Positions 5,045-34,970 of a stretch of DNA of 34,970 nt are shown here, in pieces. Positions within the stretch are counted from its first letter, which is position 1; every line of letters begins with the position of its first letter. The translations under genes and the position numbers were made by a program. Source of the stretch: a virus; the IMG/VR virus record IMGVR_UViG_3300048573_000222, positions 1 to 34,970 of that record; one strand, 5' to 3'. Below the pieces are notes generated by a model. It worked only from the letters and a program-made list of their open reading frames with translations, made no database searches and was not told where the DNA came from.

Positions 5045-6745
5045 TTACATATCGTGGGGTGCTACATACCCTCTTTTGTCGTTTGTTGGTGCAATCTCTC
5101 CCGCTTTTCTTACGTCTGCGGGCGTTGATTGTTGCGCTGCTGTATTTTTACCCGTTCCAATTTTTCTATACATTTCGCGCGTCCAGAAATGCTTACAAGT
5201 TCCGAAGTTGTAATTGTCGCTTAACTTACCACCGCCTTTCCAAAGAAAAATATCATACGGTTTATTTGGGGTAGGTGCCATACCAAATCCAGGATTAACA
5301 TTGTCTTTTGACATCGCCTCAATATCTTCTTTTCGGTACAACTTATTCGCCTGCATCATTTTTTTGCAGAATTCACGCTCGGGGTTTGGATTTCCACTAT
5401 AACGGTAACGCGTTATATATTTTTGCGTGTCCTCTCTTGAAGGACTTTTTGTTTTAGCAACCCCCGTACTTGCGAAATTCCAAAGTTTAGATAATAAAGT
5501 AGGCTCGTTTAATTTCTTTAAATCCAAATCTAGTTGGCTTTCTGTGTCGTAATTAACCGCGTCGGCACTTACTAGCTCCCATTCGTTTGAATCCAAATCG
5601 TGACCGTAAGAATCAATTACAATAGCTGACATTTTCACGGGTTCGATCGGTGCAACTATTGGTAAATCGTAGTCTAGTAAAGGATTTAAAGGCTTTAAAT
5701 ATAAATCTAAACTAACACCATTAAAAGCTAAAATCTTGTCTAATTGCTCGCAAATAAACTCTTGTGGTGGTTTTATTACGTTGTTTTGAAATAGTAAAAA
5801 AGCGTTTTTCATTTCGTCGGCATTTGAACTGAAACCACCCGCGCTTGGAATACCAAAAAGAAGTCCTGAAGTTACACCGTGTGAGAGCATAATCTTACCT
5901 CTTGCTTCATTGCTGATATATTCATATTGCTGTGATGCATTGTCTAACGGTACGCTGTCGATTGTAGTCTTTTTGGTTTCATCTGAATTAAAAGCCACAA
6001 TTATTTTGTCTCCACTAGCTCCAGTTGCTTTCTTCTTTATACTTTCGACGGTTAATCTTTGCGTTTCCTCGTCCGGTACACCATTGTTGAAATTTATAAT
6101 TTTCAAAGGCGAAAATTGGCTTTCAACTAATGAAATCAAATACTCGGATATATTTTCTTCTAATTTTGCATACGGTAAACCACCGATATAAGAAACGTTT
6201 GAAAAATATTTTTGCCCAATTGTATATTGACCGCAAACCATAATTTCTAGCGACTTATTTCCGCTACCAAAAGTAGGTAGCGGCATAGGTGGAAAATCTC
6301 TCAACTTATTCCAATTATCTGAGTAGTAATAATTTTCAATTACGCCATCAGCATTGCATTTTTCAGGTCTTAAATTTTGAATTGGCAAATGCTGAATTTC
6401 AACTATCTTTTTTTTATTTCTCGAGTAGATAATTTGTAACGCAAATTGACCAAGTAAATAATAGTCCGTTATTGCTTTACGCATTGTATCTTTTGAAAAT
6501 AACATTTTCATTTGAGCGTATTCGTTTGGCTTTCTAAATCCATCACGCGCATCTAATCCTTTGCCATAAATCAGTTTAACAATGTTATTAATTACTTGGT
6601 TATTGGTAGTAGAGTTGTTGTAACGATCAATTAAAAATTGATAATAATCATTTTTTTCACCATACTTTACCCATTTATCCTGTCGGCTTTCGACTGCTTT
6701 AGGTGGATTGTATGCCGCTAATTCAATCACATGTGTATTACTCAT
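5045..6745 (-). CDS. Portal protein with a C-terminal Cys/His domain
   Basis: The 566-residue protein forms the dodecameric ring at the capsid vertex through which DNA is packed. Residues 1 to about 400 have portal features: an N-terminal WVKYGEKNDYYQFL region, INNIVKLIYGKGL, and SHGVTSGLLFGI before the clip/stem part. Residues about 430-566 form a separate domain with TRYRYSG, EFCKKMM, YRKEDIEAMS and CKHFW. This resembles the C-terminal domain of phage minor head (MuF-like) proteins. The usual separate MuF gene is absent, so the two may be fused here. It overlaps the 94-residue gene upstream by eight bases. Confidence 0.75.
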   Translation of the reverse strand: MSNTHVIELAAYNPPKAVESRQDKWVKYGEKNDYYQFLIDRYNNSTTNNQVINNIVKLIYGKGLDARDGFRKPNEYAQMKMLFSKDTMRKAITDYYLLGQFALQIIYSRNKKKIVEIQHLPIQNLRPEKCNADGVIENYYYSDNWNKLRDFPPMPLPTFGSGNKSLEIMVCGQYTIGQKYFSNVSYIGGLPYAKLEENISEYLISLVESQFSPLKIINFNNGVPDEETQRLTVESIKKKATGASGDKIIVAFNSDETKKTTIDSVPLDNASQQYEYISNEARGKIMLSHGVTSGLLFGIPSAGGFSSNADEMKNAFLLFQNNVIKPPQEFICEQLDKILAFNGVSLDLYLKPLNPLLDYDLPIVAPIEPVKMSAIVIDSYGHDLDSNEWELVSADAVNYDTESQLDLDLKKLNEPTLLSKLWNFASTGVAKTKSPSREDTQKYITRYRYSGNPNPEREFCKKMMQANKLYRKEDIEAMSKDNVNPGFGMAPTPNKPYDIFLWKGGGKLSDNYNFGTCKHFWTREMYRKIGTGKNTAAQQSTPADVRKAGEIAPTNDKRGYVAPHDM

Positions 6746-30757: not shown

Positions 30758-30865
30758 ATCGTTTATTTTTTTACAAAGATAGACATTAATTTTATTTAAC
30801 TACTATTAAAAAAATATTTTTTTATATCATTTTTATTTTTATCTTTGCCAAAACAAATAATAACT
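30758..30865. promoter_or_regulatory. Divergent promoter region
   Basis: TATCTTTG occurs on the minus strand at 30781-30774 (early operon) and on the plus strand at 30840-30847 (50-residue gene and cassette array side). The 108-base region is over 80 percent A+T. It is the only divergent intergenic region and may be the control point between phage genes and the array. Confidence 0.7.
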
Positions 30866-31018
30866 ATGGGAAGAAATAAGCTGCCACAAGGCGAAAGAAA
30901 GGACAAAGTAGATGTATTCGTAAAGAGTAAAACAATCGAAAAGATTGGTTATAAAAAGTGCGCTGAAATAGCTGTGACGGCTATTGAAAAGGAATACTTT
31001 AAATTTGAGAAATTATAA
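30866..31018 (+). CDS. Small ribbon-helix-helix-like protein
   Basis: The 50-residue protein (MGRNKLPQGERKDKVDVFVK) has a basic N-terminus, one short strand (VDVFVK) and two helices, the outline of a ribbon-helix-helix DNA-binding protein. It is transcribed from its own promoter 19 bases upstream, divergent from the early operon, the usual site of a phage regulator. Its TAA is part of the first array core (TTATAAC). Confidence 0.6.
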   Translation: MGRNKLPQGERKDKVDVFVKSKTIEKIGYKKCAEIAVTAIEKEYFKFEKL

Positions 31019-31047
31019 CGTTTTGCGGCTATACGAGGTTGTTGCCG
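31013..31047 (+). repeat. Half attC-like site 0 (left end of the array)
   Basis: The left half only, TTATAACGTTTTGCGGC followed by TATACGAGGTTGTTGCC, is the standard left arm. The matching right arm ending in CTGTTA is missing, and the next gene starts after an A-rich stretch. This marks one end of the array. Confidence 0.6.
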
Positions 31048-31090
31048 AATTAAAAACCGACCTCACAAACACAAACTAATATTTAAAATT

Positions 31091-31297
31091 ATGACTGAAA
31101 TTTCAAAAAATGCCGAATTGCAACAATCTTGTATAACCGCTGTTATCACTCGTTTTTCTGGAGATGAAAGATTGAAGTTGCAAAAACATTTTACAAGCCT
31201 TTATGGAACAAATGAAATTGCACAAGAAAAAGCTAACAGTTTTGCTGTTGGTTTTGGAAAAGCGTGTGATATGATTATTTCGGCTCTAAATGAGTGA
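31091..31297 (+). CDS. Cassette protein 1
   Basis: The 68-residue helical protein (MTEISKNAELQQSCITAVIT) is followed directly by site 1, whose core shares the stop region (GTGATAAC). No family was recognised. Confidence 0.6.
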   Translation: MTEISKNAELQQSCITAVITRFSGDERLKLQKHFTSLYGTNEIAQEKANSFAVGFGKACDMIISALNE

Positions 31298-31373
31298 TAA
31301 CGTTTCGCAGCCTTGTACTGCCGCCTATGCGGTTGCGTAAATTCGGCGGTAGTTCAAGACTGCTGTTAGTAGC
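31295..31373 (+). repeat. attC-like site 1
   Basis: The shortest site (79 bases): left core TGATAAC and arm GTTTCGCAGCCTTGTACTGCCGCC. The right arm is GGCGGTAGTTCAAGACTGCTG, then G/TTAGTAGC. Arms pair over about 18 positions with the usual left surplus (GTTT) beside the core. Confidence 0.75.
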
Positions 31374-31404
31374 TGGACGGATTAATTAAAAACTAAATAT
31401 TATT

Positions 31405-31647
31405 ATGGAAACAGAACGAAAAATATGGAAACTGACTTTAAGTCAATGTTGTAAAAAACCAATATTTTCTATAAAAGATACAGTTGGAAAAGGCTTCTTT
31501 TGCACAAATTGCAAAAAACCTGTTTACAGTACAATAGATAGAAAATACTGGAATAAAATTTCTAAAGAACCGAAAAGCGTAGTCTTGCTACTAACGTACT
31601 GCATCTTCACGCAGTTGCGGTGGATGATGACCGAAAATAACAAATAA
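31405..31647 (+). CDS. Cassette protein 2, small zinc-ribbon-like
   Basis: The 80-residue protein has cysteines in CCKKP and, 17 residues on, FCTNCKKP, an arrangement suggesting a zinc ribbon. Its last 17 or so residues are encoded by the recombination site that follows (31587 onward), so the C-terminus depends on which site sits there. Confidence 0.55.
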   Translation: METERKIWKLTLSQCCKKPIFSIKDTVGKGFFCTNCKKPVYSTIDRKYWNKISKEPKSVVLLLTYCIFTQLRWMMTENNK

Positions 31648-31726
31648 TAACAAAACTTAAAATTTAGCCTTATGCTTGAAAATAAAGAACAGCCCCCGCA
31701 ATTGAGTGAAAATGTTGTTAGTGGCA
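31587..31726 (+). repeat. attC-like site 2
   Basis: Left core GCTACTAAC is complementary to the start GTTAGTAGC of its own unit. Arm GTACTGCATCTTCACGCAGT pairs with the right arm ending GAGTGAAAATGTTG/TTAGTGGC. The next gene appears to begin inside the interior. Confidence 0.72.
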
Positions 31727-31869
31727 GTTTTGTAAAAAAACGATATATGAAATGCCCTCATATCGACAAAAAATGTCAATGGAGGATGGCACCTGAACAT
31801 CAAAAAGGATACGAATATTTGAATGGTGCTTGTTATTTGGCTGGAAGTTTCATTTTGGAATGTCCGTAA
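31672..31869 (+). CDS. Cassette protein 3, Cys-rich
   Basis: The 65-residue ORF's first 15-25 residues lie in site 2, and an internal ATG at 31747 gives a 40-residue form. The latter part holds CPHIDKKC and GACYLAGSFILECP, possibly metal binding. Which start is used is undecided. Confidence 0.5.
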   Translation: MLENKEQPPQLSENVVSGSFVKKRYMKCPHIDKKCQWRMAPEHQKGYEYLNGACYLAGSFILECP

Positions 31870-31872
31870 AAT

Positions 31873-32010
31873 TGCCACTAACGTTATCTCGCTTGGCGAG
31901 GTTGCTGACTTCGGAAAAATAAATTTTCAATTTAAAAATAAATATGATGCGAAACGAAAACGTGAATGAACCACAAAATCAGCAATCTTGCCAAACGAGT
32001 GTTAGTAGCT
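31873..32010 (+). repeat. attC-like site 3
   Basis: Left core TGCCACTAAC is complementary to its unit start GTTAGTGGCA. Arm CTCGCTTGGCGAGGTTGCTGA pairs with TCAGCAATCTTGCCAAACGAG. The right core is G/TTAGTAGC. Confidence 0.78.
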
Positions 32011-32141
32011 GTGTTTTTACTTGTATTTGTCCGAGTGGATTGAAATACACAAAAGACCACGTAAAAGCTATGAAAGAATGGCGAAAAATAGTAATGAATT
32101 ATTTAAAAATTGAACGACTTTACAAAACTATAAATCAATAA
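31944..32141 (+). CDS. Cassette protein 4a
   Basis: The 65-residue ORF begins (ATGATGCGAAAC) inside the interior of site 3 and runs through its right arm. It has cysteine-containing CVFTCICPSGLK and a helical C-terminus. If real, site and gene must travel together. It ends three bases before the next gene. Confidence 0.45.
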   Translation: MMRNENVNEPQNQQSCQTSVSSCVFTCICPSGLKYTKDHVKAMKEWRKIVMNYLKIERLYKTINQ

Positions 32142-32144
32142 ATT

Positions 32145-32465
32145 ATGAAAACAGAAATCACATTAATCGTTTTAGGAATTTTAATAACTGCTTTAGTTAT
32201 AAATGTAGTAATTGGAAATATTAAAAAACGTGCTTATTTAAAAGGATATAAACAAGCCGAATTTGATATTACTGCAAATATGTTAGATGTTGCTACTTGG
32301 TTTGGTGGCAGAAAACAGATTTACAACTCACTTTATTTATTTGCTGTTAGATATAGAAATAAAAACCACGTTTCAGCACATTATTTCAGAGAAGATATTT
32401 TGAATTTGGGCGAAAATAGAATTACAGATTTGTCAAATGAAAAATATAAGCAGTTAGTTGAGTAA
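32145..32465 (+). CDS. Cassette protein 4b, membrane-anchored
   Basis: The 106-residue protein has an N-terminal membrane helix (LIVLGILITALVINVVIG at about 6-23) and a soluble C-terminal part of about 80 residues. It shares one cassette with 4a and is followed by site 4. No family was recognised. Confidence 0.62.
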   Translation: MKTEITLIVLGILITALVINVVIGNIKKRAYLKGYKQAEFDITANMLDVATWFGGRKQIYNSLYLFAVRYRNKNHVSAHYFREDILNLGENRITDLSNEKYKQLVE

Positions 32466-32468
32466 CAT

Positions 32469-32608
32469 AGCTACTAACGTCCTAGTGCTTGGCGAAGAAG
32501 CGGATAAATAAGCCTAAAACTTCGATTAAGCACCGAACTAACAAAAAATAAACAAACTTTAAATTATAAACCGAACTCGCTTTTTTGCCAAACACTTGTT
32601 ATGTGAGG
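32469..32608 (+). repeat. attC-like site 4
   Basis: Left core AGCTACTAAC is complementary to its unit start GTTAGTAGCT. Arm AGTGCTTGGCGAAGAAGCGG pairs with TCGCTTTTTTGCCAAACACT. The right core is G/TTATGTGAG. The loop is long and A-rich. Confidence 0.77.
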
Positions 32609-32633
32609 TTGTGGGTCGATAAAACAAAAATCT

Positions 32634-32858
32634 ATGTGTAATTCAATAATAATAAATTTAGGAGAAAAAGAAATTGCAACCCCAAGAGAGTTTTTAGAAC
32701 ATTTTGGATTTGTTCCATATGATGTAGAAGCAGTATTAATGGACGAATGTTTATGTTATTGTGACCTTGAAAAAACTTTAAACGAACATAAAATACCATT
32801 TAAAAATGATTGTGGGGATTTATATGTTGGGATGTTGGAAAAAATAAAATGGACTTAA
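32634..32858 (+). CDS. Cassette protein 5a
   Basis: The 74-residue acidic protein (MCNSIIINLGEKEIATPREF) has the cysteine pair CLCYC. It is followed after three bases by 5b in the same cassette, a two-gene unit. No family was recognised. Confidence 0.6.
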   Translation: MCNSIIINLGEKEIATPREFLEHFGFVPYDVEAVLMDECLCYCDLEKTLNEHKIPFKNDCGDLYVGMLEKIKWT

Positions 32859-32861
32859 ATA

Positions 32862-33140
32862 ATGGAAATGATAGAATATTTTAACAGATATAGTGATACT
32901 GATTTACCTGATAAAATGGGTAGATGGGCAAGAATAGGGATTTATAATAATATCCGAGTTTCTTGGATAAGTAGAGTTCAAACAAAAGATAAAGTAGTTT
33001 TTTGCGCAAGTTGTCATTTTCCTACTATGCAAAATGATACGGCCAATGAACATAAAACTTTTGAAACATTTGAAAATGCAAAAGACTTTGTTTCTGAAAG
33101 ATGGAATTGGTTTTTAAATGCAATAAAACAGCCTGAGTAG
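32862..33140 (+). CDS. Cassette protein 5b
   Basis: The 92-residue mixed alpha/beta protein has CASCHFP in the middle and a C-terminal helix rich in Trp (ERWNWFLNAI). No family was recognised. Confidence 0.6.
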   Translation: MEMIEYFNRYSDTDLPDKMGRWARIGIYNNIRVSWISRVQTKDKVVFCASCHFPTMQNDTANEHKTFETFENAKDFVSERWNWFLNAIKQPE

Positions 33141-33167
33141 CTTTGGTTACAAAGTTGCTCGAAGCTG

Positions 33168-33306
33168 GAATATAACGTTTTGTAGCTTGTTGCAGTGGCG
33201 TGCAAGTAAGCGAGTAGTTTCGGTTTAAAAACTATAATAACAGAGAAGCCAAATCATTAAATTAAACAACAACCAAGCCATTGCTACAAACTACTGTTAT
33301 GTGAGG
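33168..33306 (+). repeat. attC-like site 5
   Basis: Left core ATATAAC with arm GTAGCTTGTTGCAGTGGCGTG pairs with CAAGCCATTGCTACAAACTAC. The right core is G/TTATGTGAG. Here the left core does not mirror its own unit start beyond TAAC, which suggests past recombination between different cassettes. Confidence 0.75.
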
Positions 33307-33329
33307 TGCGGTTACTTAAAACTAAAATT

Positions 33330-33917
33330 ATGGGTTGCGACATTCATTTATTTACGGAAAGAAAAAGAAACATTAATAATGAAGAAAAATGGGTTAATGT
33401 TGATAATTGGAAACTAAATCCTTACTACGACAAAAATGACGAAGAAGAAAGAAAGTACAAGTTAAATTCTGCTTATAGAAATAGAAATTATACTTTATTT
33501 TCTTTATTGGCTGATGTTAGAAATTACGATGATAACAAAATAATTTCAGAACCAAAAGGATTTCCAACAGATGCAAGTGAAATTGTGAAAAAACAAAACG
33601 AATATTGGGAAGGAGATGGTCATTCACATAGTTTTTTTACAATGAAAGAACTTTATGATTTTTATGAAGAAAATAAAACAGTCAACTTTACTGGATTAGT
33701 TGACCAAAAAGGAGTTAAAGAAATAGAAAACGGACAAATGCCAAGTTGGTGGTGTAAAGCAAGTACGCAAGAAGATTTAGTTTATAAAGAATGGGACTTT
33801 GAAAACTTGACTTTAAAAGATTTTATTGATAAATTGGAAAGTCATTTTAAGTCTGAATATTATGATAAAGAAAGAGATTGCGAAAAATTCAGAGTTGTTT
33901 TCTGGTTTGACAACTAA
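33330..33917 (+). CDS. Cassette protein 6, MGCDIH family
   Basis: The 195-residue protein starts MGCDIHLFTERKRN, with DVRNYDD, a SEPKGFPTD segment and GDGHSHSFF. These conserved pieces occur in a family of phage and bacterial proteins of unknown function, rich in possible metal-binding His, Asp and Cys. The start at 33330 is chosen because the family begins with MGCDIH; an ATG at 33306 is unlikely. Confidence 0.75.
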   Translation: MGCDIHLFTERKRNINNEEKWVNVDNWKLNPYYDKNDEEERKYKLNSAYRNRNYTLFSLLADVRNYDDNKIISEPKGFPTDASEIVKKQNEYWEGDGHSHSFFTMKELYDFYEENKTVNFTGLVDQKGVKEIENGQMPSWWCKASTQEDLVYKEWDFENLTLKDFIDKLESHFKSEYYDKERDCEKFRVVFWFDN

Positions 33918-33926
33918 ACGTAGCAT

Positions 33927-34069
33927 CTCACATAACGTTCCGCAGCTACACGAGCGGTTGGGGCAAAAAACGCCTGGTCTTTCGGAGTTGAACCAGACCT
34001 TAAAAACAAGAACAAAAAATTGAATTAATAACCAAACCCCAACTGTCGTGTAACTGCTGTTATGTGAGG
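33927..34069 (+). repeat. attC-like site 6
   Basis: The outer cores CTCACATAAC and GTTATGTGAG are perfectly complementary. Arm GCAGCTACACGAGCGGTTGGGG pairs with CCCCAACTGTCGTGTAACTGC with one unpaired G on the left. This is the clearest site of the array. Confidence 0.82.
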
Positions 34070-34096
34070 TTGTGGGTCGCTAAAACTAAATCTATT

Positions 34097-34423
34097 ATGA
34101 AAACAGTATTGATAGTAGGAAAGCCAATAGAGGTCGCTGTATTATGTAATTATCCGCATTTATTTAAAAGATATGTATTTGATTATGGAAAGATTAATGA
34201 AAACTATACATTTATAAGAAATAAAGAAATGTGTAATGGGAAAATATTTGATAAAATAGTTTATACGGTTGATTGGCACGATATGGATAATTTTCAAGAA
34301 GTTGAAAAACACGTTATTTCAAGAGTGAAAAAAAATATATGTGATGTTTGCGGATGCGAAAAAGAAAAAGACAAAGATTGTGATTATTGTATTAGACAAT
34401 ATGCTCTTTCTTGGGGTTTGTAG
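34097..34423 (+). CDS. Cassette protein 7, C-terminal zinc finger-like
   Basis: The 108-residue protein (start MKTVLIVGKPIEVAVLCNYP) ends in CDVCGCEKEKDKDCDYC, a CxxC...CxxC pair fitting zinc binding. The start at 34097 is preferred over 34064, which lies in the site core. Confidence 0.65.
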   Translation: MKTVLIVGKPIEVAVLCNYPHLFKRYVFDYGKINENYTFIRNKEMCNGKIFDKIVYTVDWHDMDNFQEVEKHVISRVKKNICDVCGCEKEKDKDCDYCIRQYALSWGL

Positions 34424-34427
34424 CAAT

Positions 34428-34561
34428 CTCACATAACGTATCGTGTCTTGGTGCAGGCGGAAAAAGTACACCAGAATAATAGAATAATAACTAAAAATAA
34501 AGACACAAAATGAACATTGAATCAAACCCGAAATCCGCTTGCTCCAAAACGCTGTTAGCGG
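34428..34561 (+). repeat. attC-like site 7
   Basis: Left core CTCACATAAC is complementary to its unit start. Arm GTGTCTTGGTGCAGGCGG pairs with CCGCTTGCTCCAAAACGC. The right core is G/TTAGCGG. Confidence 0.78.
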
Positions 34562-34607
34562 ATAGCCGTTTTTAAATACAAATATTAATCAATTAAATAA
34601 ATAAATT

Positions 34608-34829
34608 ATGACACCAAGTAAAAAAGCTAACGAATTAGCGAACAAAATGTATCGTGGAAATGTTTTTGAAAAATCAAAAGAAGAACATTTAAAAGAACTT
34701 TTAGAAGCAAAAAAATATGCTATAATTGCCGTTGAAGAAATTATAAACGACAATCCAAACATATACGATTCTGATAGATTAAATTTTAATTATTGGAACG
34801 AAGTTAAAAATCAAATTGAACTTCTTTAG
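34608..34829 (+). CDS. Cassette protein 8
   Basis: The 73-residue helical protein (MTPSKKANELANKMYRGNVF) ends FNYWNEVKNQIELL. It is the last cassette before the fixed flank in the array version at the window end, and lies before the variable cassette in the version at the window start. No family recognised. Confidence 0.65.
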   Translation: MTPSKKANELANKMYRGNVFEKSKEEHLKELLEAKKYAIIAVEEIINDNPNIYDSDRLNFNYWNEVKNQIELL

Positions 34830-34970
34830 GCGGTTACACTACGGTTTCCGCTAACTACTTACTAACACCTATAATACTATACATTACTTTATTAAAAATC
34901 AATACATTATGGTAGTACAAGTTAATTTTTTAGTTAAATGGCAATTTAAAGAATATCCACATTATAAGAT
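34729..34970. repeat. Terminal redundancy with a 677-base difference
   Basis: 34729-34855 equals 1-127, and 34856-34970 equals 805-919. The circle is therefore 34,728 bases with the variable cassette or 34,051 without it. Confidence 0.9.
34909..34970 (+). CDS. 5' part of the NUMOD4-like gene (terminal redundancy)
   Basis: This is the same gene as 858-1079, cut off by the window end. Confidence 0.65.
   Translation, partial: MVVQVNFLVKWQFKEYPHYK

Follow-up and report, generated by a model that had tools for sequence, protein, structure and literature searches.

The window, by which we mean the whole stretch of viral DNA analysed (34,970 nucleotides; IMG/VR record IMGVR_UViG_3300048573_000222), carries between 31016 and 34855 eight full recombination sites and a terminal half site, all on the + strand. 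They delimit a series of cassettes, each composed of a small gene or gene pair and one site of about 126 nt. The host group given for this virus is Flavobacterium-type bacteria. Upstream of the array is a promoter-like box resembling the Bacteroidota -7 box (consensus TAnnTTTG), with a divergent copy recognised by sequence. The genes and boxes are:

30774-30781, - strand: divergent copy of the -7-like box
30840-30847, + strand: promoter-like box, TATCTTTG
31091-31297, + strand: cassette 1 ORF (68 aa)
31405-31647, + strand: cassette 2 ORF (80 aa, CxxC pairs)
31672-31869, + strand: cassette 3 ORF (65 aa)
31944-32465, + strand: cassette 4, two ORFs (of 65 and of 106 aa)
32634-33140, + strand: cassette 5, two ORFs (one of 74 aa, with a 64% relative in the L005 array, and one of 92 aa)
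33330-33917, + strand: cassette 6 ORF (195 aa, PHROG 10141)
34097-34423, + strand: cassette 7 ORF (108 aa)
34608-34829, + strand: cassette 8 ORF (73 aa; viral contig L097 has a relative)

Pfam, PHROGs and PADLOC provided nothing useful concerning the functions of the cassette proteins, and a plasmid search with the array DNA gave no match.

Site architecture and the polymorphic cassette

The sites share a common layout: TAAC, five unpaired nucleotides, arms of about 20 bp, one nucleotide and GTTA, forming a conserved hairpin of about 126 nt. A ninth full site, absent from the initial annotation, is located near the start of the window.

124-245, + strand: S0, site of the polymorphic cassette in the cassette-plus form (E 9.5e-13)
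31016-31145, + strand: S1, full, 130 bp, right arm within ORF 31091-31297 (E 8e-19)
31298-31368, + strand: S2, 71 bp, short loop (E 4e-9)
31592-31720, + strand: S3 (E 2.5e-17)
31879-32004, + strand: S4 (E 3e-23; DNA fold z -5.4 on the + strand, -3.9 on the - strand)
32475-32601, + strand: S5 (E 4e-22)
33173-33299, + strand: S6 (E 3e-21)
33933-34062, + strand: S7 (E 5.5e-19)
34434-34557, + strand: S8 (E 2e-17)
34852-34890, + strand: attI-like array end, the half site TAAC core (34852-34855) and then TACTTACTAACACCTATAATAC; in the cassette-minus form, the point of insertion

This attI-like end is analogous to the host attI (TAACTNGTNTATA) and to an attI that is fixed in nine phage isolates (TAACTACAATATTAC). 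The latter is a degenerate equivalent of the host attI, which it resembles weakly. The exact window motif gave four chance matches in unrelated viral contigs and nothing else.

The initial annotation had proposed eight full sites and a half site in the array, an asymmetry between left and right cores and, in most units, flanks complementary across the gene. Both an arm scan and a covariance model confirm the count. The asymmetry is real: in all window sites except one (6/2), 5 nt separate TAAC from the left arm and 1 nt separates the right arm from GTTA. Arm scores range from 27 to 42, whereas shuffling the whole window (n = 20) produced no site with a score of at least 26 in 19 cases and one in the other. 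The purpose-built covariance model recovered all nine full sites, with E values from 4e-9 to 3e-23 (four of the nine were among its training sequences). A common structure, on which the initial annotation had turned, was found as a covarying hairpin: covariation is 0.604 compared with 0.139 after shuffling, and double-change cells number 368 compared with 104, indicating strong compensatory change. Complementary flanks are present in 8 of the 9 window cassettes (the exception is unit 32475-33172) and, among adjacent site pairs from many genomes, 130 of 166 show full complementarity over the first five positions (3.5 expected). At the sequence level, the structure, conservation and covariation of the sites are established.

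Folding of the DNA of three sites was better for the + strand than for the - strand. In the cases inspected, one conserved position of the flanks forms no pair other than G.T. Rfam contains no family covering these sites. A further weak 'site' (32185-32349) was not counted because its offsets are wrong and it is located within a gene.

The contig is circular and its ends overlap as follows:

1-127: overlap copy, equal to 34729-34855 (127 nt)
128-804: polymorphic cassette (S0 and gene), 677 bp, missing at the other end of the contig
342-767, - strand: the gene within the polymorphic cassette (product of 141 aa, coiled/membrane-type; host-type polarity)
800-919: overlap copy after the extra cassette, equal to 34851-34970

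The two ends differ only by this 677-bp insertion, which is exactly one cassette, cut at the TAAC core. We take the presence of both forms in a single contig to be a natural with/without polymorphism. The cassette has relatives, sites included, in Flavobacterium chromosomes.

Cassette movement in phages and the host loci

The same site family occurs in isolated virulent Flavobacterium phages (Lillamyvirus and Muminvirus), with 10 to 15 copies in each. One 439-bp cassette is internal in lillamy9-1, occupies the leading array end in lillamy9-3 and 9-7, and is absent from sniff9-2 compared with sniff9-1; these sister phages show 0 to 3 other differences. Moving the cassette to the attI end turns lillamy9-1 into lillamy9-3 except for 3 mismatches over 8101 bp (without the move there are 2842), and sniff9-1 minus the cassette equals sniff9-2 with 0 mismatches. 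A difference of one unit was also found for each of snork6-2 and morran9-1. The rearrangement breakpoints fall within the 5-7 bp core. These comparisons show that single cassettes are precisely lost, gained and relocated between phages at the sites. The relatives carry different genes in different orders, which favours the cassette reading of the initial annotation. Its further claim, site-bounded gene cassettes on a phage lacking an integrase, is supported: neither the window phage nor the eight isolates examined encode a tyrosine recombinase (PF00589). Cassettes of the isolates include DNA methyltransferases. In the text of Nilsson et al. 2020 (PMC7077304) on Baltic Flavobacterium phages the words 'integron' and 'cassette' do not occur.

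On the chromosomes of Bacteroidota, a tyrosine recombinase gene and a conserved attI lie next to the same sites. At 11 host loci attI is about 90-150 nt from this gene, and in 10 of them the first cassette shows complementarity at 5 of 5 positions. Of 198 sampled Bacteroidota genomes, 105 contain the site family and 70 the recombinase; sites are present in 64 of the 70 genomes with the recombinase but in 41 of the 128 without (p 5e-17). The recombinase is encoded by roughly half of the Flavobacterium genomes sampled. Among 150 of these, the median number of sites is 19 in genomes that encode it and 4 in the others (p 9e-11; at most 23 sites counted per genome), although 8 or more sites are still present in 17 of the 64 that lack it (drafts may be incomplete). 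Recombinase and sites have a fixed mutual orientation in the bacterial loci, the gene being transcribed toward the array in most of them. Such sequence comparisons also establish the linkage of recombinase, attI and array in the hosts.

The linked recombinases are 345-400 aa long, with an N-terminal domain of about 70 aa, and in none of them does the catalytic domain contain the IntI-specific insert. They score 169-219 bits with TIGR02249 (cut-off 265), above which no match was found in 12 site-bearing genomes, and 191-231 bits with NCBIfam NF040815, around its cut-off of 220. In a small tree with long branches, four IntI proteins group at 100/99 to the exclusion of the linked recombinases, and the Xer proteins of Flavobacterium itself form a separate clade. 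A structure model (mean pLDDT 81, pTM 0.51) confirms the fold, with XerA and IntI4 as best matches, but informs little on the N-terminal domain. We regard the enzyme as an IntI-related but non-IntI protein. A shorter relative of it (268-275 aa) is encoded beside the arrays of three viral contigs (L011, L038 and L099).

Proposed mechanism and alternatives

The polarity of genes relative to their site is opposite in the two pools, one orientation accounting for 72 of 77 phage cassettes and 9 of 144 host cassettes. Given the reversed polarity of the phage pool, newly captured cassettes would land at the far end of the phage operon. Only two weak matches to host cassettes were found among 114 phage ORFs in the sampled arrays. 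The polymorphic cassette of the window, with its host polarity and host relatives, provides the one good case of a cassette shared between phage and host.

We consider it very probable that the array consists of integrase-less mobile cassettes of a Bacteroidota integron-like system, moved in trans by a host recombinase. The single strand of a site (the + strand of the window) would fold into a hairpin with TAAC/GTTA as its R-type stem; in a circular cassette, the flanks of that cassette would lengthen this stem. The candidate host tyrosine recombinase would act in trans on this folded strand and excise cassettes by recombining one site with another within the GTTA core; these would then be inserted at the fixed attI-like end of the phage. 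The host enzyme is apparently the agent of phage cassette movement, and the cargo may help the phage. Four points count against this: the linked recombinase has no IntI insert, which is described as essential to the working of integrons; 17 of 64 Flavobacterium genomes have many sites but no recombinase; few cassettes are common to the sampled phage and host arrays; and the phage attI is only weakly similar to that of the hosts.

Recombination might instead be due to the enzyme of a co-infecting phage, in view of the shorter relatives on the three viral contigs. This is unlikely, since the window phage and eight isolates have no recombinase and the host form is far commoner. Alternatively, the array could be a CALIN of canonical attC sites on which a true IntI acts, supplied by the host or by a mobile integron. 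This would agree with the recombination of the Polaribacter phage site P12002L_attC2 with attI1 via IntI1 in E. coli (PMC9892861). Our own site model gives weak matches (E 2e-4 and 7e-4) flanking a methylase gene in P12002L, probably the published sites. However, the TIGR02249 result, the missing insert, the position outside the IntI clade, the failure of the site model to match classical attC and the single complete Bacteroidetes integron of the IntegronFinder 2 survey (PMC9024848) make this quite improbable.

The sites are repeats of one family and the window phage encodes a RecE-like exonuclease, as might suit a rearrangement of the units by homologous recombination between these similar repeats, or by replication slippage, in which no site-specific enzyme takes part. 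Breakpoints would then be expected throughout the sites, whose arms differ, rather than in the 5-7 bp core, and reinsertion occurs at the attI end, which has the core alone in common; we give this explanation very little credence. That the hairpins lie between short genes of a phage without a catalytic gene could also suggest that they are fixed terminators, or repeats of the MITE type, and do not serve to delimit cassettes. This is extremely improbable: the moving unit is gene plus site and not the hairpin alone, end complementarity spans the gene, and arrays of near-identical phages differ in content, with cuts at the cores. An Xer/dif module was also rejected (the sites are hairpins of about 126 nt, not 28-bp dif-like sequences, and the linked recombinase is apart from Xer).

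Returning to host-driven movement, there is probably a phylum-wide, non-IntI class of integron in Bacteroidota, with sites missed by standard attC models and with a separate phage pool of reversed polarity that the host enzyme shuffles in trans.

Comparison with known systems

No description of the host system, of cassette movement between phage isolates or of the reversed polarity was found in the open-access literature. Integrons were thought almost absent from the phylum, with one complete Bacteroidetes integron in the IntegronFinder 2 survey, and a widespread Bacteroidota integron-like system appears to have been overlooked by standard integron surveys. If it works, integron-type cassette capture would be possible without the insert called essential. 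Virulent phages would also exploit a host gene-shuffling machine to exchange accessory genes (for example, DNA methyltransferases).

The initial annotation called the array integron-like. This holds for the cassettes, but the sites are apparently not canonical attC and the recombinase is not IntI. As in integrons, including sedentary chromosomal integrons, a cassette is a gene with one hairpin site, the core is GTT and the complementarity of the cassette ends spans the gene; small unrelated genes form long arrays and host genes read away from attI. Of the features of strict integrons, an attI adjoining the recombinase gene (11 host loci), an exact cassette unit and insertion at attI are found; the IntI-specific insert and a place within the IntI clade are not. 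Unlike integrons, the recombinase has the N-terminal domain and is mostly transcribed toward the array. The sites, although of the same general plan as attC, have a 5x1 internal loop, and at E<0.05 the site model has no match on a class 1 array or the Shewanella phage integron. Because of this loop, the failure to match classical arrays and the non-IntI recombinase, we conclude that the sites are probably not canonical attC. The enzyme resembles the XerA-like NF040815 family ('site-specific tyrosine recombinase/integron integrase'), whose name, however, brings no cassette system with it.

Phage arrays without an integrase had been thought undescribed, mistakenly, since Qi et al. 2023 (PMC9892861) report integrase-less attC clusters on phages, including one of the Bacteroidota, Polaribacter phage P12002L. 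Those CALINs and the arrays studied here are alike in being integrase-less clusters on virulent phages, with methyltransferase cargo; the window itself has a cluster of sites and no PF00589 protein, and would be a CALIN if its sites count as attC. The present arrays differ in their 8-15 sites of one family, fixed phage attI and candidate host recombinase, in cassette movement between isolates, and in a gene polarity opposite to that of host cassettes.

Cassette sites and the unit that moves

The viral contig (34,970 bp) carries genes that include those for tail, portal, terminase, methyltransferase, helicase, RecE-like exonuclease and endolysin. At its right end, small genes alternate with eight sites on the + strand, and the array closes with a solitary TAAC core at 34852. 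Each site opens with TAAC and five unpaired bases (GTNNN), continues with two arms of approximately 20 bp that enclose a loop, and closes with one base and GTTA. Seven of these eight span 124-130 bp and the remaining one 71 bp. Scanned for this layout, the window sites score 27-42, and a single match of 26 or more arose across 20 shuffled versions of the entire window. All nine window sites (these eight and S0, at 124-245) were recovered on the + strand, with E values of 4e-9 to 3e-23, by a covariance model built from 70 sites, a training set that included four of the nine.

The structure of the sites is genuine and under constraint. Of the cells in the alignment of 70 sites, 92% are paired, 19 of 24 pairs have changed on both sides and 368 cells show a double change (104 in shuffles), figures for pairing and covariation that are favoured by the site scan, which selected on arm complementarity. 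Shifting the partner by one column reduces pairing to 36-44%. Among 343 collected sites, 265 are 125-129 bp long, and in 314 the two unpaired sides are offset by four. DNA folding of three sites gave a more stable structure for the + strand than for the - strand each time, although in one of them neither strand was clearly beyond shuffles.

The mobile unit is a circular cassette. Over 166 adjacent site pairs, the bases following GTTA of one site and those preceding the next TAAC are approximately 90% complementary at positions 1-5, and 130 pairs are complementary at all five (3.5 expected). This is expected if the flanks of a single cassette join on circularisation. Position 7 is complementary in 2% of the pairs and is G.T in the cases inspected. 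In the window, only the unit at 32475-33172 has non-complementary ends (GTTATGTGAGG and GGAATATAAC); it is perhaps two cassettes fused after loss of a site.

Cassette movement among phages

The window contig is circular: positions 1-127 are the same as 34729-34855, and 800-919 the same as 34851-34970. Removing 128-804 makes the left end identical to the right end, letter for letter. The excised 677 bp correspond to one whole cassette:

124-245, + strand, site S0
342-767, - strand, cassette gene
the TAAC core that follows

We infer that the 127-base overlap is what de Bruijn assembly at k=127 would produce, and the simplest reading is therefore a mixed population of phages, some carrying this cassette and some lacking it.

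Isolated Baltic Flavobacterium phages, described as lytic in a paper that makes no mention of integrons (PMC7077304), carry 10-15 sites each. Lillamy9-1 and lillamy9-3 have equal genome lengths. If one 439-bp cassette of lillamy9-1 (5637-6079) is moved to the leading end of the array, the two differ by 3 mismatches in 8101 bp, compared with 2842 without the shift; the same relocation is present in lillamy9-7. Sniff9-1 without this same 439-bp cassette is sniff9-2 (0 mismatches), the first cassette of snork6-1 is absent from snork6-2 (1 mismatch), and morran9-1 is lillamy9-1 with one additional unit (2 mismatches). The breakpoints fall within the GTTAT core. The leading end, TAACTACAATATTACATG, is identical in nine isolates and adjoins differing first cassettes. 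A second contig of the window phage lineage, 98.9% identical over 1.7 kb around the endolysin, carries another array, which includes a single related gene. These genome comparisons indicate that cassettes move.

The host of the window phage is likely to be Flavobacterium or a relative, judging from the phage relatives and the polymorphic cassette. The window also has an Rfam match to permuted tmRNA (RF04321; 1138-1403, - strand; 48.9 bits, cut-off 47), which overlaps a tRNA-Arg call (1250-1324) and is possibly a phage-borne permuted tmRNA.

Host arrays, their candidate recombinase and separate cassette pools

Searched as an exact pattern, the left arm matched at least 119 bacterial genome stretches, almost all from Flavobacterium. 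In twelve of these genomes the integron-integrase model gave no match reaching its cut-off; in most, its top match was a tyrosine recombinase of 345-400 aa adjoining the array or a contig end. In most host loci inspected, the side of the array and the directions of sites and recombinase follow one constant arrangement; Halpernia is an exception, as are one or two loci from the phylum sample. A conserved TAACTNGTNTATA lies between the recombinase and the first cassette, whose end is complementary to it at 5/5 positions in 10 of 11 loci. In 150 Flavobacterium genomes, the median number of sites (counted up to 23) is 19 with the recombinase and 4 without. In 198 Bacteroidota genomes, sites occur in 105 and the recombinase in 70; sites are present in 64 of the 70 with it and 41 of the 128 without. 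The genomes in both comparisons share descent, so that p-values overstate independence.

Several observations extend this distribution. A Chryseobacterium plasmid (NZ_CP041688.1; L301, 8001-9044), a candidate mobile version of the system, encodes a family recombinase and has at least one site; neighbouring genes include Crp/Fnr, RidA and metallophosphoesterase. A 580-aa recombinase variant (L289, 4302-6044) has, in its N-terminal part, a W-rich motif that may resemble HARP domains and is repeated about three times, and similar forms of 580-615 aa occur in other site-rich genomes. Flavobacterium-type sites or site patterns are also found in contigs titled Bifidobacterium breve and Candidatus Nitrotoga (L215 and L119); the title of L215 is probably wrong, since its genome groups with Flavobacterium in the whole-genome set.

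Phage cassettes are a separate pool. The longest inter-site ORF lies on the + strand of the site in 72 of 77 cassettes from phages, compared with 9 of 144 from bacteria. Bacterial cassette genes are read away from attI, an orientation shared with classical integrons, and those of phages towards it; in phages, incoming cassettes are therefore placed distal to the promoter. The polymorphic cassette of the window departs from the phage pattern in having host polarity. Among 299 Flavobacterium genomes, two contain relatives of its gene (76% and 70% over an 86-aa stretch). One shares 92.8% identity across 209 bp of the gene and approximately 90% across its own site arms; the other is flanked by two family sites. 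Capture from a bacterial array best explains this cassette.

Searches of the window and of eight isolates found neither a protein of the recombinase family nor a PF00589 domain. A small number of further viral contigs encode a relative of 268-275 aa adjoining arrays, and three of these are apparently complete phage-borne systems:

L011, 6559-7386, short family recombinase beside an array
L038, 7774-8580, short family recombinase beside an array
L099, 1433-2239, short family recombinase beside an array

Proposed mechanism and relation to integrons

In the mechanism we propose, the linked recombinase would perform cassette recombination, presumably on a folded single strand, and would work in trans on phage DNA; the cargo may benefit the phage.

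Sites of a Polaribacter phage that IntI1 can recombine (PMC9892861) resemble short members of the site family; the matches are weak and are probably the published sites. On sequence criteria, the linked recombinase is not IntI. It lacks the IntI insert, considered essential for integron function in a classification paper (PMC8138268), scores 169-219 bits where the integron-integrase model requires 265, and, in a small tree, branches outside the group formed by four IntI. Our site model found no match on a class 1 array or on the Shewanella phage integron. The system is thus integron-like in the way it would work, and falls outside the integrons in the strict sense.
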